A stretch of DNA of 35,879 nucleotides from a virus. This document shows positions 8,635 through 14,879 of this stretch, one piece after another (the stretch's first letter is position 1; every line of letters starts with the position of its first letter). The notes beneath the pieces are model-generated. The model had not been told where the DNA came from, did no database searches, and saw nothing but the letters and a program-made list of their open reading frames with translations. A program made the translations under genes and the position numbers. The stretch lies in IMG/VR virus record IMGVR_UViG_3300027969_000235, positions 1-35,879 of that record; one strand, written 5' to 3'.

Positions 8635-8762
8635 TTTTTCTTTGCCGCCGCGCGTTTCTCAGCGTAGGCAATCGCAACTGCTTGCTTGACTGGCTTACCA
8701 GCTTTAACTTCAGTCTTGATGTTTTCTTTAAATGCTTTAGGTGAAGCAGATTTCTTGAGCAT
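8631..8762 (-). CDS. Conserved basic phage microprotein (43 aa)
   Basis: The product starts MLKKSASPKAFKENIKTEVK and continues AGKPVKQAVAIAYAEKR before a run of Ala and Lys. About one residue in three is Lys. It begins within the last codons of the terminase large subunit gene and overlaps the next microprotein by 4 bases, so it is held tightly inside the packaging operon. The pattern SPKAFK.N...E..AGKP.KQAVAIAY recurs in small phage proteins. Function is unknown. Conservation of both position and basic character argues for a packaging or head-assembly accessory. Confidence 0.8.
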   Translation of the reverse strand: MLKKSASPKAFKENIKTEVKAGKPVKQAVAIAYAEKRAAAKKK

Positions 8763-10285
8763 TATGCACCCATCCAAGATCCAGACATTGTAGCCCTATT
8801 GGAAACAATCGTGCGCGCTTTTTCCGTGTACTCACGATGCGCTACAGGATAGGCAAACGTCACCGCCAGCGCGTCGGCTGCGTCAGGTGATGCCAATCCT
8901 CTAGACTTCATTTCTTTCTTGCCTTCCAGAAAGATCGTTCCCGCTGAGTTGGGCTTTTTCATCGGCCCAACCAAATCGTCTTTAAGCATCTTGTCCTGCG
9001 GGATGCTGGCTGACCGTAGCCACTCGCGCATCGCGCCCCACATTTCAGCCCGCTTGTTGCCCCACATTACAGGGTTCTTGGCTTTCCAACCAAAGTTTAC
9101 CCCTCGTACCTTATACCGTTGTTCGGTCAATCTGTCAAGTATACCGTAGCCCAAACCACCTTCGTCAATCACAGTTAGCGTTGGTTTGTATTCGTCAATC
9201 GCGTCAATGACACGCCCGACAATCGACATCGTATCCTCGCCCTTATAGCGCTTGATTGCTACGATGTCCCGCCCACGTCTGACAACAATCACAGTTGAGT
9301 CCAGTCCACCCCTTGCCGGGTCGACCCCTATTACTATAGGCGCGGTCTCATCCTTGTACTTAGGCCGCTTGAATGCGTCCTCGACAATCATTGGCGAAAT
9401 GAACTGATCCTCGCCCGCGCTTGGGAAGTCGCCGTACACCTCAACGCGCGCTTGGATCGAATCCTCGCCGTACTCCGCGATGATCTGCTCGTAGACCTGC
9501 TTATCCGTCCCTTCGACCGTCCGGGCATCAATCTGGCGCGTTTGCCAGAAGTTACGCTTACTATTAAACGTCTCGAAGAAGTACCCGCTGTTACGCCGTG
9601 GGTTGCTAAACGCAAACCAATAGCGGTCTAGGATGTTCTCGGTAAAGAACCCGGCACCCACCGCCCAGATCGCGTCGGCGATACCGCTGGCCTCGTCGAA
9701 GATCAACATCATGCCGTCGTGGTTGTGTACCCCGGCGTAAGCGTCTGGGTTTTCTTCGCTCCACAACTTGCCTTCCGCTGCCCAATAGCGCGTACCTTTC
9801 TTTAAGTCGCGCTCGACCAGTTCGGTCAGCCACGCCGCCGGTACAATCTTAGTCGCGCTGATCTCCCACCAGTGGCTGTTGATAATCATCGCTTGCCACT
9901 TGGTCAGTTCGCCCCAGGTGACAGACCGTAACTGCGCCTCACTGTTGGCGCTCACAATGACCGTCGAGCCGATGCGCGTGGATAGCATCCACAGGATCAG
10001 CCAGCTAACTAACGCCGACTTACCAATACCCCGACCGCTGGACACCGCCTCGCGTAGCGTGTCCATGTTGACCTTGCCTTCGTTGGCTTTGATGTGCTTA
10101 CTAATGTCGCGCAGGATCTCGCGCTGCCATTTGCGCGGGCCTTGGAACTTAGCTAACGGTGTGTTCGGTTGCCCCCAGGGAAACGCGAACAATACAAACG
10201 CTTCAGGATCGTTCGCTATCGCGGGTGACCACAACCGCGTCATCAACGTCTGCTCTTCGGCTGATGTATAGATCGGTTTTTGCAT
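8762..10285 (-). CDS. Terminase large subunit (507 aa)
   Basis: This is the ATPase and nuclease that translocates DNA into the prohead and cuts it. A Walker A motif SSGRGIGKSAL lies at residues 82-92 and Walker B MMLIFDEAS at 192-200 (catalytic Glu198). The RNase H-like nuclease contributes Asp312 in VIGVDPARGG, Asp364 in TVIDEGG and Asp458/Asp461 in SPDAADAL. Length is typical. The ATG at 10285 lies inside the small-subunit frame, giving an 83-base overlap. An in-frame ATG at 10243, behind a GAAGAG site, is an alternative start that would remove 14 residues. TerS lies directly upstream and the portal downstream after two microproteins. Confidence 0.95.
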   Translation of the reverse strand: MQKPIYTSAEEQTLMTRLWSPAIANDPEAFVLFAFPWGQPNTPLAKFQGPRKWQREILRDISKHIKANEGKVNMDTLREAVSSGRGIGKSALVSWLILWMLSTRIGSTVIVSANSEAQLRSVTWGELTKWQAMIINSHWWEISATKIVPAAWLTELVERDLKKGTRYWAAEGKLWSEENPDAYAGVHNHDGMMLIFDEASGIADAIWAVGAGFFTENILDRYWFAFSNPRRNSGYFFETFNSKRNFWQTRQIDARTVEGTDKQVYEQIIAEYGEDSIQARVEVYGDFPSAGEDQFISPMIVEDAFKRPKYKDETAPIVIGVDPARGGLDSTVIVVRRGRDIVAIKRYKGEDTMSIVGRVIDAIDEYKPTLTVIDEGGLGYGILDRLTEQRYKVRGVNFGWKAKNPVMWGNKRAEMWGAMREWLRSASIPQDKMLKDDLVGPMKKPNSAGTIFLEGKKEMKSRGLASPDAADALAVTFAYPVAHREYTEKARTIVSNRATMSGSWMGA

Positions 10286-10664
10286 TCTCTAGCACTCTGG
10301 TTTGCGCGGCTTCTAAGGCTTGGGTAATGCTGATCCGCTGATACACGTCAACGCTGACTTCTTGCTTGGCTGTCCATTCGTGCCGGTGACGCAGGATCTC
10401 TAGCGCCGCTTTGGAGTCGCCACCCAACGCCGCGTCGTGCAGCACTTTTGAGATTTCGCGTTCGTTATCTGCGCGACCTTTCTTTTCAGCCATTTCCGCA
10501 ACTGGGTCTAGCTGACACAGTTGCCGATACTCAGCGGGCAGCATACCAGCGGCCAGCGCCAGCGAGTCACCTTTTAGACCTAACTTCGCCGCGTCATAGA
10601 TGGACTGAAGACGCGCCTCTGTTGCCCGGACATCACGAACTGTTAGTGGCAAAGATTTGAACAT
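10203..10664 (-). CDS. Probable terminase small subunit (153 aa)
   Basis: A helical protein opening MFKSLPLTVRDVRATEARLQ, followed by a possible helix-turn-helix (KLGLKGDSLALAAGMLPAEY) around residues 28-50. Further helices include KVLHDAALGGDSKAALEILR, and the end of the gene overlaps TerL by 83 bases. Small terminase subunits recognise the packaging site and stimulate TerL. Position, size and an N-terminal HTH support this role, though no single residue proves it. The frame stays open to an ATG at 10781, but the extra segment is Arg-rich and crosses an A/T tract and the first 19-base repeat, so I start at 10664. No Shine-Dalgarno sequence is visible there. Confidence 0.75.
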   Translation of the reverse strand: MFKSLPLTVRDVRATEARLQSIYDAAKLGLKGDSLALAAGMLPAEYRQLCQLDPVAEMAEKKGRADNEREISKVLHDAALGGDSKAALEILRHRHEWTAKQEVSVDVYQRISITQALEAAQTRVLENAKTDLYISRRADVDDAVVVTRDSERS

Positions 10665-10756
10665 GGCTGGATTGTAACAAAAAAATTTTAAAAAATGTTT
10701 GCGGGGGGTGCGTTTCCGTGACCGGTCGGGCCAAGGCCCTACCCGGCCCCCTCTTT

Positions 10757-10775
10757 TGTACCCGGACATTGCCAT
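10757..10775 (+). repeat. 19-base repeat, copy 1
   Basis: The sequence is TGTACCCGGACATTGCCAT, identical to copy 2 at 10888-10906. It lies about 90 bases upstream of the TerS start. The reverse complement faces TerS, so it could be a leftward promoter or regulator-binding site. Confidence 0.85.
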
Positions 10776-10843
10776 GGGCACAACAGCCGATCGGCCATTG
10801 CGCCAGCTAGCTGCCAGCGTTCAGGCCATCGCGTGCGCGTGCC

Positions 10844-10882
10844 CATGTGTGCGCGTGCGCGTGTGTGCGCGTGTGCGCGTGC
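10844..10882. repeat. 39-base alternating pyrimidine-purine tract
   Basis: Every step from C844 of this kilobase to C882 alternates pyrimidine and purine (CA, TG and CG dinucleotides). A second 12-base alternating run lies just left at 10831-10842. Such CG/TG tracts readily adopt left-handed Z-DNA under negative supercoiling. Two imperfect copies of GTGCGCGTGCCCA bracket the tract. Confidence 0.85.
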
Positions 10883-10887
10883 CCAGG

Positions 10888-10906
10888 TGTACCCGGACAT
10901 TGCCAT
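10888..10906 (+). repeat. 19-base repeat, copy 2
   Basis: Exact match to copy 1, 131 bases further right and directly after the alternating pyrimidine-purine tract. An exact 19-base match in a non-coding stretch of this size is very unlikely by chance. Confidence 0.85.
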
Positions 10907-11188: not shown

Positions 11189-11217
11189 TTGACACGCCAT
11201 GATCGACTGTGTACAGT
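11189..11217 (+). promoter_or_regulatory. Sigma-70 promoter of the early cassette
   Basis: A perfect -35 TTGACA (11189-11194) and a -10 TACAGT (11212-11217) are separated by 17 bases. The expected start of transcription is near 11224, about 43 bases before the first ATG at 11267. This is among the best host-type promoters in the window and points to immediate early expression. Confidence 0.85.
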
Positions 11218-11266
11218 ACTTACATGGCGCAGTACAACGCAGCGTCAACAACCCGGAGAGCACAAA

Positions 11267-11452
11267 ATGAACAAGTCGGAACTTCGCGAAATCGTGTTTG
11301 TGATCCAGTACCACAAACTTGGAATGCGTGACACGGCCGCGCGCGCATTGTCCGCGCTGATCCGCGCGGCGCGCACTAAACGATCATCGGCCGCGCTGTG
11401 GGAATACGCAACGATGCTGCAGCTTGACACTCACCCTGACTTTATCGCCTAA
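11267..11452 (+). CDS. Early hypothetical protein (61 aa)
   Basis: ATG at 11267 follows a GGAGAG ribosome site at 11255-11260 and is the first gene behind the strong promoter. The product is a basic helical protein: MNKSELREIVFVIQYHKLGM, then an Ala/Arg-rich helix (ARALSALIRAARTKRSSAAL), ending in LDTHPDFIA. No cysteine or membrane segment is present. I do not recognise the family. The Ala/Arg helix could bind nucleic acid or a host protein. Being the first early gene suggests a host-takeover or regulatory role, which is only an inference from position. Confidence 0.7.
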   Translation: MNKSELREIVFVIQYHKLGMRDTAARALSALIRAARTKRSSAALWEYATMLQLDTHPDFIA

Positions 11453-11493
11453 CATCAGACGGGGGGCGCAAGCCCCCGACACAGGAGAGCAAC

Positions 11494-11718
11494 ATGACCA
11501 AGACTGACAAATATAACCTTGTATGCGCGTACAAGAATGCGTGGATTGCCGTGAAGGGTACGAGTGTCGACGTCGATTTTGAGAACGGGAATCTTTACGC
11601 GATCCGCAAACAGCGCCCGTCCGGTTCGTGGAGTGAGCCAGAATTGATCAATACGTCGGCGTTGATCGAACGTCTCGGGATTCTGGCCGGTCAATTGTCC
11701 GCGCGCGTCAACAATTAA
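11494..11718 (+). CDS. Early hypothetical protein (74 aa)
   Basis: The start at 11494 is preceded by AGGAGAG, a strong ribosome site. The product is compact and mixed alpha/beta: YNLVCAYKNAWIAVKGTSVD, VDFENGNLYAIRKQRPS, then a C-terminal helix (LIERLGILAGQLSARVNN). It lies 41 bases behind the 61-residue gene and just before a hairpin terminator. The family is not recognised. It is small, neutral and soluble, like many phage proteins that act on host enzymes, but no target can be read from the sequence. Confidence 0.75.
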   Translation: MTKTDKYNLVCAYKNAWIAVKGTSVDVDFENGNLYAIRKQRPSGSWSEPELINTSALIERLGILAGQLSARVNN

Positions 11719-11725
11719 AATTCCA

Positions 11726-11761
11726 GCGAATGCGTCTTCGGGCGCATTCGCGGGCGTTTTG
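11726..11761 (+). terminator. UUCG-loop hairpin, probable partial terminator
   Basis: GCGAATGCG (11726-11734) pairs with CGCATTCGC (11743-11751), extended by T-G and C-G pairs around a UUCG tetraloop. The tail is GGGCGTTTTG, a short T-run, so it may only attenuate transcription before the Cys-rich gene at 11795. Confidence 0.7.
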
Positions 11762-11794
11762 TCCGGTAACACTTCACTACACTACGGAGAACCT

Positions 11795-12469
11795 ATGATT
11801 CACTTCGTCGCAAAATCATCCAACACAAAAACCGGGCCGATCCCGATTACTTACAGCGCGCGCGATACGTGCCCCGCTAGTTGCGGGCAGATGAAAGCTT
11901 GTTACGCCGATGCGGGGTTTCACACTCGTTTGAATTGGGACAAAGTCCCGACGCGCGGAAAAGATATCGCAACGGTCGCGGCCAAAATTCGCGCGTTAAA
12001 ACCCGCGACGCTGTGGCGGTTTAACGTCGCGGGCGATTTACCGGGCATCGGTGAGGATATTGATGGCCCCGCGTTTGCGCAGCTAATCGAAGCAAACCGC
12101 GGGCGTCGCGGGTTTACGTACACTCACAAGCATTCGGACCGCGCGATCAAATTCGCGCGTTTCGCGACCAAACGCGGGTTTACCGTAAACCTATCGGCCG
12201 ACGACGCGGGTCACGCTGACAAGTTAGCGGAAACCGGTTTACCTGTCGCAGTCGTCGTGCCATTGGGTACGCCCGAACGCACGACGACACCCGCTGGTCG
12301 CGCGATCGTCGTGTGTCCCGCGCAAACGAAAGATGACGTTACCTGCTTTACCTGCGGACTATGCGCCCGCGCGAACCGCAAGGTTATCGTCGGGTTTCTC
12401 GCGCATGGCACGCGCGCCAAAGCGGCCGACGCAATCGCGCGTCGTGTCATTCCACTTGTTAAGGCTTAA
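11795..12469 (+). CDS. Cys-rich conserved phage protein, DUF7227-like (224 aa)
   Basis: ATG at 11795 follows ACGGAGA. The N-terminal signature is a KSSNTKTGPIPITYS stretch followed by three cysteines (C26, C30, C36) in CPASCGQMKACYA. The middle alternates strands and helices: TLWRFNVAGDLPG, GFTYTHKH, GFTVNLSADD and LPVAVVVPLG, a periodicity that fits a TIM-barrel-like fold. The C-terminal part has C174, C184, C187 and C190 (CFTCGLC). Seven cysteines in two groups suggest zinc or iron-sulfur sites. The N-terminal spacing (CX3CX5C) is not the radical SAM CX3CX2C pattern. Proteins with this opening occur in many phages without a known function. It has heavy GCG/CGC codon use and CGCG-rich DNA. 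Confidence 0.8.
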   Translation: MIHFVAKSSNTKTGPIPITYSARDTCPASCGQMKACYADAGFHTRLNWDKVPTRGKDIATVAAKIRALKPATLWRFNVAGDLPGIGEDIDGPAFAQLIEANRGRRGFTYTHKHSDRAIKFARFATKRGFTVNLSADDAGHADKLAETGLPVAVVVPLGTPERTTTPAGRAIVVCPAQTKDDVTCFTCGLCARANRKVIVGFLAHGTRAKAADAIARRVIPLVKA

Positions 12470-12471
12470 TC

Positions 12472-12570
12472 ATGAAACTCGAAACTTACGCTACTCTCGC
12501 GCTGGCGCTGTGGTGTTTCGTCGCGGGCGTCATCCTCGCGGATGGCATCATCGCGGCGTTGTGTCGTTAG
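12472..12570 (+). CDS. Single-pass membrane microprotein (32 aa)
   Basis: The frame starts two bases after the Cys-rich gene's stop. The product is MKLETYATLALALWCFVAGV followed by ILADGIIAALCR, with one hydrophobic segment spanning about residues 6-30. The only ribosome site is a weak AAGG inside the previous gene, so it would depend on coupled translation. It is followed by a strong terminator and closes the early cassette. Tiny membrane proteins in early phage operons can alter host membranes or exclude other phages. There is no direct evidence for this one, and the gene could be spurious. Confidence 0.5.
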   Translation: MKLETYATLALALWCFVAGVILADGIIAALCR

Positions 12571-12618
12571 TCATCGCGGCGGTTCTCGCCGCGATCCTAG
12601 TGATCATCCTAGACTTAT

Positions 12619-12646
12619 AAAAAAAGCCCCTAACGGGGCTTTTTTT
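12619..12646. terminator. Bidirectional intrinsic terminator
   Basis: AAGCCCC and GGGGCTT pair around a TAAC loop (12631-12634), with an A-run on the left and a T-run on the right, so it works on both strands. It separates the rightward early cassette from the convergent primase gene, whose last codons touch it. Confidence 0.92.
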
Positions 12647-14879
12647 ATACTTCAACCATTCGCCTTAATTCTGAGGCGCTGGCGCTTGCCATGTCGGGCG
12701 CGCAGTACACGTGACGCTTAGTCTCTAACCCGCGCGCAGCTACCCGCCCGCAGTCGATCCAACCCGCTTCCTTGATCGCCTGCAGTAGCGCTTGCTGGTA
12801 CAGTTTCATGCCTGCTGGCGCGCTACGGGCTAACTCATCCAACACGGCCTGCAGGGGCGCCGCGATCACGCCACGGGTAAAGACACCGCGTCGCCCGCGC
12901 ATTAATTCGAGAATGTAAGACTCAGCCCCGGAGAGCGAATTCTCCGTCATGGTCTGTTTAAATTCCGTCATGGGCGGGGCAGCGCCAGGATTGAATCGGG
13001 ATACGTCGCGGGCGTGCAACCATGCCGCCACGGCCGCGCGGCCGCCGGTTTTAAGCCACTGCCATATAGCGGCCCCATCCGCATCACTCATGCGCCCCAC
13101 GCGCGACCATATACAGAACCAACGGCGATCTTGGGCGCTGATCGATATAGGTAACAGATCATTAGAAAACGCGAGCACGAAGCCCCTATTGGCCATCATA
13201 TAGGGGTGTAACCCTTTCCGATTCACGGCCAACACTTCGGGCGGGGCCGCAATAATTGGTTTCAATTTATTGGCCAGAACCCGGCGATCGGCCGCAAGCG
13301 CTTCCTTCAACTCATTAATAACTAGAATCTCCGACTCTAGCTGGTAACCCCACTGCGACGTCAGCGACTCATTGTCAACCAAGCCATAGTTATGCTTATT
13401 TTCGCCACACACGGCCCATATGAACGGGTCGTACATCGTATCCTTACCCGATCCTTCATCCGACGCGTGTAGGATCGCATGGTTGATCTTAACGCGTGGA
13501 TTCTGGACCTTATAGGCCATCACGTCCCATATATGGTCTAACTCTGTTTGCACCGGCACTAGCTTGCGACAGTGATCGACCCATGCCTGTATAGGCCCCG
13601 CCATAGGCGTGGGGCGCGCGTCGACCCAACGGTTGGCATAAACCATACCATCGCGCGCCGTTAGCACCGACTCGCCCGCAGCATAGGTCAAGCCCGCGAG
13701 CACCTGCCCGCCCGCGACTGTACGGTTCTCATCAAACCACATAGACGCGCTAATCAAGCGCGCGCGCCCCGTAGGGCCTGAGTGCATAGAATGGCAAGCA
13801 ATCCCGCGATAGGTCGCGTCGAACGCGCGCCGGGACACCAGCACACGGTCTAATAGGTCGAAATAAGAATCGTCCGATTGGACATAGGCGAAGCGCTTAA
13901 ACCAGTCGGTCCGCTCGACCCGCGACCGCTCGCGCGCTTCAACCTGGGCGATGATCGAATCGGCATCCTCGCTAAACATATCGGTCTTCTTGACCTTCGA
14001 TAGCGCACCGCCCACAACGGACGCGAGCAGTTCTTCACGCAGGCCATAGGACCGTTTAGGGCCGCCCTCCTCTTCAACCCACGCCAAAAACCGCGACGAA
14101 TCCCATTCGGTGCAATGCGAATGCAAACAGCAGTACGCCCGCGAAGCGGGCATATAGCGGCCTTCTAGGTTACCGTCGGAGTGCTCCGCATGGTTGGGGC
14201 ATATCACGCCCCACCAGCCCGCAGGGTTACCCGCCTGGGTTACTTCTTTACGCTCAACCAGCCACGCCAGCACGTCATCCGACCCGTCATCCTTCAGAAC
14301 ACCGGGTCGGAAGTTGTTGGTCTCCGCTTCACCCGGCACGACCGATAAGGCGTTGCAAATCTCTTCAAGGCTAAACTCACGCGACGGGTTGAACTCAACC
14401 AAACGCGCGGCGAACCGCCCGCGTCCGGGCTTTAGATTGATCGAGCCAGGGATGCGGATGTTGCGCACTGGATTAATAGCGCCAGGGTCCGTATAGCCCG
14501 CCGCTGCTATAGCCTTAATCGCCGCGCTATAGACCGACTTATGGGGCTGATCGTCTAGCCGGAAGACATAGGCCCACTGGTAGTTGTCCTTGGACGTTTC
14601 AATGACCCATGTAGGGCGTATAGGCGGGGTCTTGCTTTTGGTCCCGACGTCATCCAACACCAGACACCAGACGTTTTCACAGAACGCCGCTCCTGCCGAT
14701 ACTCTTTGACCGTCGAATCGGTTCTCGATGAACGAACCAATGTTGACGTACCACGCGCCTTCACCGCGCGGCTTACGGTATGCGGGATAGGCGTAACCGC
14801 CTTCCCGCTCGACTTGTTTAGTGAATAGTACAACTTCACCCTCAGGCGCGAGGGCTATGATATGATCCACCAGTTCCAT
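12645..14879 (-). CDS. Primase-helicase, AEP plus D5/SF3-like ATPase (744 aa)
   Basis: A bifunctional replication protein that would prime and unwind DNA. Residues 1-180 resemble RepB-like or archaeo-eukaryotic primases: WCLVLDDVG (Asp76, Asp77) and a later RNIRIPGSINLKPG segment. A zinc-binding patch sits at about 227-256 (Cys227, His230, Cys250, Cys251, His253, His255, Cys256). The helicase part has a P-loop SDEGSGKDT at 473-481, in which Asp follows the invariant Lys, Walker B-like ILVINELKEA near 518-527, and FVLAFSNDLLP and DRRWFCIW further on, matching DUF5906-type phage and plasmid ATPases. RBS GAGGAG. It lies downstream of the DNA polymerase on the same transcript. Confidence 0.82.
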   Translation of the reverse strand: MELVDHIIALAPEGEVVLFTKQVEREGGYAYPAYRKPRGEGAWYVNIGSFIENRFDGQRVSAGAAFCENVWCLVLDDVGTKSKTPPIRPTWVIETSKDNYQWAYVFRLDDQPHKSVYSAAIKAIAAAGYTDPGAINPVRNIRIPGSINLKPGRGRFAARLVEFNPSREFSLEEICNALSVVPGEAETNNFRPGVLKDDGSDDVLAWLVERKEVTQAGNPAGWWGVICPNHAEHSDGNLEGRYMPASRAYCCLHSHCTEWDSSRFLAWVEEEGGPKRSYGLREELLASVVGGALSKVKKTDMFSEDADSIIAQVEARERSRVERTDWFKRFAYVQSDDSYFDLLDRVLVSRRAFDATYRGIACHSMHSGPTGRARLISASMWFDENRTVAGGQVLAGLTYAAGESVLTARDGMVYANRWVDARPTPMAGPIQAWVDHCRKLVPVQTELDHIWDVMAYKVQNPRVKINHAILHASDEGSGKDTMYDPFIWAVCGENKHNYGLVDNESLTSQWGYQLESEILVINELKEALAADRRVLANKLKPIIAAPPEVLAVNRKGLHPYMMANRGFVLAFSNDLLPISISAQDRRWFCIWSRVGRMSDADGAAIWQWLKTGGRAAVAAWLHARDVSRFNPGAAPPMTEFKQTMTENSLSGAESYILELMRGRRGVFTRGVIAAPLQAVLDELARSAPAGMKLYQQALLQAIKEAGWIDCGRVAARGLETKRHVYCAPDMASASASELRRMVEV

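Follow-up and report, generated by a model that had tools for sequence, protein, structure and literature searches.

The operon between the terminase and primase genes of the podovirus-type genome studied here occupies a conserved slot in which a constant frame encloses variable cargo genes. The genome is a 35,879-base IMG/VR virus record (the window), and we consider it probable, at about 0.7, that this region serves a podovirus lineage as an operon of accessory cargo genes, most likely expressed early. Under this explanation, host RNA polymerase would probably initiate at the fixed promoter of the cassette and transcribe swappable small genes, with a movable hairpin between some of them; a membrane peptide of 19-25 amino acids would nearly always close the operon in front of a bidirectional terminator, which would insulate the cassette from the convergent primase/polymerase operon. 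The main cargo of the present copy, g3, is predicted to modify, in the course of takeover, a molecule of either host or phage. New here are the constant terminal micropeptide and the layout of fixed frame and variable cargo; a standardised slot closed by a near-universal micropeptide, presumably located in the membrane, is of greater interest than the four genes to which a preceding sequence-only reading had drawn attention.

Podovirus-type genes recognizable in the window encode portal, terminase, head closure, exonuclease, helicase, primase and family-A DNA polymerase proteins. The cassette (positions 11189-12646) forms a single isolated operon between TerS/TerL and the primase gene (Table 1), and its description as an isolated unit running opposite to both neighbours was correct. 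All of the four small genes listed by the sequence-only reading are present, but the operon has five in total, the 19-amino-acid g5 having been overlooked. Ribosome-binding sequences (GGAG or AGGAG) precede g1, g2 and g3, in agreement with the strong sites that had been claimed for three of the genes, and g4 is without one; none of the cassette genes is a recognized virion component, in line with the statement that the unit carries no structural gene. A DNA-level search of isolated phages gave no match. At positions 10820-10890, in the gap that separates the terminase genes from the cassette promoter, lies a low-complexity stretch of the GTGCGCGTGTGCGCG type.

Table 1. Features of the cassette, its flanks and cargo genes found in the same slot of relatives (positions refer to the window unless a locus is named).
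Feature	Position	Strand	Remarks
TerS/TerL terminase genes	8762-10781	-	Flank of the cassette
Sigma-70-type promoter, TTGACA-17-TACAGT	11189..11217	+	Part of the constant frame; TTGACA at 11189, TACAGT at 11212-11217
g1	11267-11452	+	61 aa; first gene in many, not all, relatives
g2	11494-11718	+	74 aa; rare cargo gene; homologue in L086
Intercistronic hairpin, UUCG loop	11726-11751	+	5' A-tract, 3' GGGCGTTTT; movable boundary element
g3	11795-12469	+	224-aa DUF7227 protein (Pfam PF23872); largest gene of the cassette
g4	12472-12570	+	32 aa; single-TM peptide (predicted)
g5	12561-12620	+	19 aa, hydrophobic, VSLVIAAVLAAILVIILDL; GTG start; constant last gene of the slot
Bidirectional intrinsic terminator, A7-GCCCC-TAAC-GGGGC-T7	12619-12646	.	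From sequence and fold; common to the convergent primase operon
Primase gene	12645-14879	-	Convergent flank of the cassette
Sliding-clamp-like gene	L073:3510-4106	-	Equivalents in L075, L077, L080, L082, L083, L086, L103, L107
phrog_2554 protein gene	L147:5172-5885	-	Homologous to DUF7227; same slot

The frame of the slot begins with the promoter, in which 10 of 12 positions match; the perfect -35 sequence and the 17-nt spacing that had been reported are both there, but the -10 sequence (TACAGT) matches at four of six positions only. The combination of a perfect -35 sequence with TANNNT occurs at just two sites in the 35.9-kb window (11189 on the plus strand and 19177 on the minus strand), and simulation put the chance of one such site in the cassette stretch at about 0.2%. 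Of the 16 close relatives examined, 15 have a perfect TTGACA at 75-82 nt upstream of the start codon of the first gene, although the first gene itself varies. The promoter is not universal, since L004/L023, L022 and L015 have no recognizable promoter of the cassette type. Early expression of the cassette is suggested by the host-type promoter together with the replication-type cargo of related slots.

Further elements of the frame are structured. The claimed internal UUCG hairpin and strong bidirectional terminator could both be confirmed by sequence and fold. The hairpin folds into an 11-bp stem and recurs upstream of g3, of a gene for a 104-amino-acid protein, of the clamp-like gene and of one further gene. 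Among its six distinct versions, a small set, 96.7% of the pair cells are kept paired, and at two pairs both partners have changed in a compensatory manner; sliding the partner by one to three columns as a control lowered the paired fraction to 13-55%. An equivalent, terminator-like hairpin is found at the place of the terminator in most relatives.

Between these fixed ends the genes are exchanged among relatives, as revealed by the comparison of the same locus that the sequence-only reading had proposed as a check. The slot keeps its position between TerS/TerL and the primase gene in those DUF7227-bearing loci that are long enough to show it, and it has the same position in the isolate DSL-LC05, where the DUF7227 gene lies among a run of small genes. 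DUF7227-bearing relatives contain g1 in some cases and g2 in almost none, with other small genes in their stead, and g3 itself is missing from several of the closest relatives. In the closest relatives without DUF7227, the slot encodes a 198-amino-acid protein that matches PF02767, the DNA polymerase III beta clamp central domain, with an E of 6.5e-10, and we regard it as a sliding-clamp-like cargo. The cargo of 27 complete slots selected by the terminase comprises clamp-like genes in 11, DUF7227 in three, phrog_2554-type genes in two, a clamp-like gene plus phrog_2554 in one, and none of these types in 10. A more distant relative (isolate record MW202483) carries a cytosine methyltransferase gene and a gene with a DnaA-type HTH in the slot. 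The statement that the cassette has no replication gene is thus true for the present genome but not for its sister phages with their sliding-clamp-like gene. This swapping of genes matches what an accessory slot would be expected to show. PHROG 3007 names the clamp-like family 'RusA-like Holliday junction resolvase', a label that looks misplaced.

Small-gene clusters with a DUF7227 or phrog_2554 member likewise occur in early accessory regions of other phages, namely in Pseudomonas phage PAK_P4, where an annotated promoter immediately precedes the g3 homologue and the surrounding region is rich in promoters, and in the mycobacteriophage Zimmer, where the homologue (phrog_2554, gene 88) is found among genes near the right end. 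These regions are long arrays, unlike the compact promoter-to-terminator frame described here; the fixed terminal micropeptide and this compact frame were seen only in the present podovirus lineage.

The exchange of cargo bears directly on the notion that g1 to g4 act together as a dedicated anti-defence or host-takeover cassette. The resemblance to cassettes of this class noticed by the sequence-only reading is plausible, as judged from a self-contained operon with a host-type promoter and strong gene turnover; further points in its favour are the accessory location, the small genes for which no structural match was obtained, and the DNA methyltransferase in the slot of MW202483. The four genes do not, however, form one coherent system: they are not inherited as a set, g2 is nearly unique to the present phage and missing from almost every relative, and g1 and g3 are each found in some relatives only. 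PADLOC yielded no convincing defence-model match for any cassette gene, which counts against such a cassette to a limited degree because the PADLOC models are mainly of defence proteins and cover anti-defence poorly. We therefore hold a jointly acting cassette to be unlikely. That the slot supports replication, its cargo mainly aiding phage DNA synthesis and DUF7227 replacing a clamp-like function, is in our estimation distinctly improbable. It would fit with the adjoining primase/polymerase operon, with the DnaA-HTH gene of other relatives, and with the finding that complete slots of the closest relatives contain either DUF7227 or a clamp-like gene, never both and never neither, a pattern that is partly due to sampling because DUF7227 itself was the query that retrieved most DUF7227 loci. 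Among the wider relatives, however, 10 of 27 slots have neither gene and one combines the clamp with the related phrog_2554 protein; moreover, DUF7227 does not resemble a clamp and occurs in unrelated phages. An accessory cargo operon remains our preferred reading of the region.

The constant last gene of the slot is g5. Its reading frame overlaps the end of g4, including the g4 stop codon, and stops where the terminator begins. When close relatives were compared pairwise, 504 codon differences were synonymous and 108 non-synonymous, changes between GTG and ATG start codons being counted among the non-synonymous ones, and pN/pS was 0.39 over 67 distinct versions, a set somewhat biased towards conservation because it had been collected with a residue pattern. 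A survey free of this bias used 80 relatives gathered by their terminase alone, 27 contigs of which span the region from terminase to primase. We searched for a hydrophobic frame of 16-26 amino acids with an acidic residue followed by L, I, V or M at its end, located at most 320 nt from the end of the primase gene. Such a frame was found in 25 of the 27 slots but in only three of 4812 random stretches of the same contigs; the two misses were L131, whose candidate is 294 nt away, and L133, for which there is only a doubtful one. All 25 peptides end in D-L or D-I and have lengths of 19-25 amino acids. A separate pattern scan covered at least 77 newly fetched loci (L291-L367), some on contigs already covered; among the matches listed, the peptide lies close before the convergent primase gene in 70 of 77.

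These data establish that g5 is a coding gene, and it is more constant than any cargo gene of the slot. Its size is below the usual limits of annotation and gene calling; such constancy in a gene that escapes these thresholds makes it a strong candidate for a function that has been overlooked. Translation of the terminal peptide is probably coupled, in many of the relatives, to that of the preceding gene. It is very doubtful that the g5 frame serves only to hold ribosomes on the mRNA as far as the terminator, without yielding a functional peptide, since the position directly before the terminator, the frequent overlap with the previous stop codon and the simple composition of g5 would suit such a role, but the near-fixed length, the constant C-terminal D-L or D-I and the mostly silent codon changes would not. 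The peptide was not found in the more distant isolate DSL-LC05, and tblastn (20 amino acids) found none in isolated phages, the query being too short and too low in complexity for a real test.

Among the other small genes, g4 is found close to the operon end in almost every close relative, and both g4 and g5 probably reside in the membrane. As a very short, single hydrophobic helix g4 resembles the hydrophobic type I toxins of the Ldr kind; Ibs is another such toxin. The match of g4 to Ldr is below threshold (14.6 bits versus a cut-off of 27; E 0.036). The genes considered here differ from type I toxins in lacking a match above the Pfam cut-off or the RNA-family threshold and in lying within a phage operon, and the Rfam search returned only sub-threshold chance matches. 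No Pfam or PHROG match was obtained for g1, and a PADLOC match to AbiEi (E 0.027) was rejected as due to chance. The codon differences between g2 and its L086 homologue are 22 synonymous and four non-synonymous, those of g3 are 62 and five, the latter indicating strong purifying selection; by this codon pattern both g2 and g3 are real coding genes.

The g3 protein matches DUF7227 over residues 2-215 (E 4e-73, 246 bits, cut-off 27) and GP88 (PF17338) marginally (E 1e-6, 29.0 versus a cut-off of 24.4 bits), so that DUF7227 is the better assignment. Homologues are present in 186 records of isolated phages, mostly of Pseudomonas, plus cyanophages and a roseophage, and to speak of an undescribed system was therefore too strong; g3 rather belongs to a known but uncharacterised family, whose member gene here occupies an exchangeable slot. 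The searches made for DUF7227, GP88 (PF17338) and PHROG 2554 uncovered neither a function nor a structure nor a dedicated paper, apart from one article in which GP88, radical SAM and phage occur together; in the literature covered, no paper mentioned DUF7227 or PF17338, or DUF5131 in connection with phages, and a search of viral contigs with the GP88 seed retrieved a single contig. DUF7227 homologues also exist in bacterial genomes. In alphaproteobacterial genomes, the chromosomal gene lies directly beside a phage integrase gene (L172, L173) or a resolvase/recombinase gene (L169); the bacterial copies checked are therefore probably part of mobile elements or prophages. The Variovorax neighbours tested had no family match.

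Residues invariant in 33 aligned DUF7227 members, g3 included, are S8, N10, K12, C26, C30, C36-Y37, R75, G80-D81, H111, S134, C174, C184, C187, C190 and H204-G205, and the cysteines thus form a group of three and a group of four. The phrog_2554 family is homologous to DUF7227 (hhalign 98.2%, E 6e-14) and retains this 3+4 cysteine plan with different spacing; the two share N-x-K-T-G, C..C..CY, GD, Y-x-H and C-C-x2-C-x2-C. AlphaFold models of g3 and phrog_2554 are confident (pLDDT 93.8 and 92.2) and match no PDB fold at E ≤ 0.001. Searching the PDB by sequence yielded only meaningless thioredoxin reductase tails (E about 0.08).

We infer from these features that g3 is an alpha/beta-barrel enzyme with a metal cluster (iron-sulphur or zinc). 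The idea of a radical-SAM-like chemistry derives from the cysteine positions and the following G-D element: the three-cysteine cluster would sit in a loop after an early barrel strand, with G-D after the next strand, and the four-cysteine site resembles an auxiliary cluster. This chemistry is a guess because the models match no solved structure and the profile comparison with DUF5131 (Gp37/Gp68), which we take to be a radical-SAM-like phage family, was not significant. An assignment of g3 to DUF5131 or to radical SAM was accordingly rejected. In contrast to the CX3CX2C motif of radical-SAM enzymes, the spacing is C-x3-C-x5-C in g3, wider in other DUF7227 members and C-x2-C-x11-C in the phrog_2554 relatives; viral structure models named Radical_SAM match g3 at E 0.14 or worse.

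Phage accessory slots are places where new counter-defence and takeover genes turn up. We give a small chance to the far-reaching possibility that the g5-type peptide is an unrecorded, near-universal early effector and, at the same time, that the DUF7227/GP88/phrog_2554 proteins are new phage metal-cluster (radical-SAM-like) enzymes directed against host functions or defences, all in a standardised exchangeable slot. Because the ends of the slot are recognizable by the perfect -35 sequence, the hairpin, the micropeptide and the terminator in front of a convergent primase gene, an inventory of its cargo can be drawn up from many environmental phage contigs. The phrog_2554 family extends to mycobacteriophages (Zimmer gene 88) and to Gordonia and Klebsiella phages; with members of DUF7227/GP88/phrog_2554 in phages of Pseudomonas, Klebsiella, Mycobacterium, Gordonia and cyanobacteria, solving one of these proteins would annotate many genomes. 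In the Klebsiella phages OY978784 and OY979426, the phrog_2554 match falls on stretches labelled tail sheath, baseplate hub or virion structural protein, labels that are probably misplaced or wrong.
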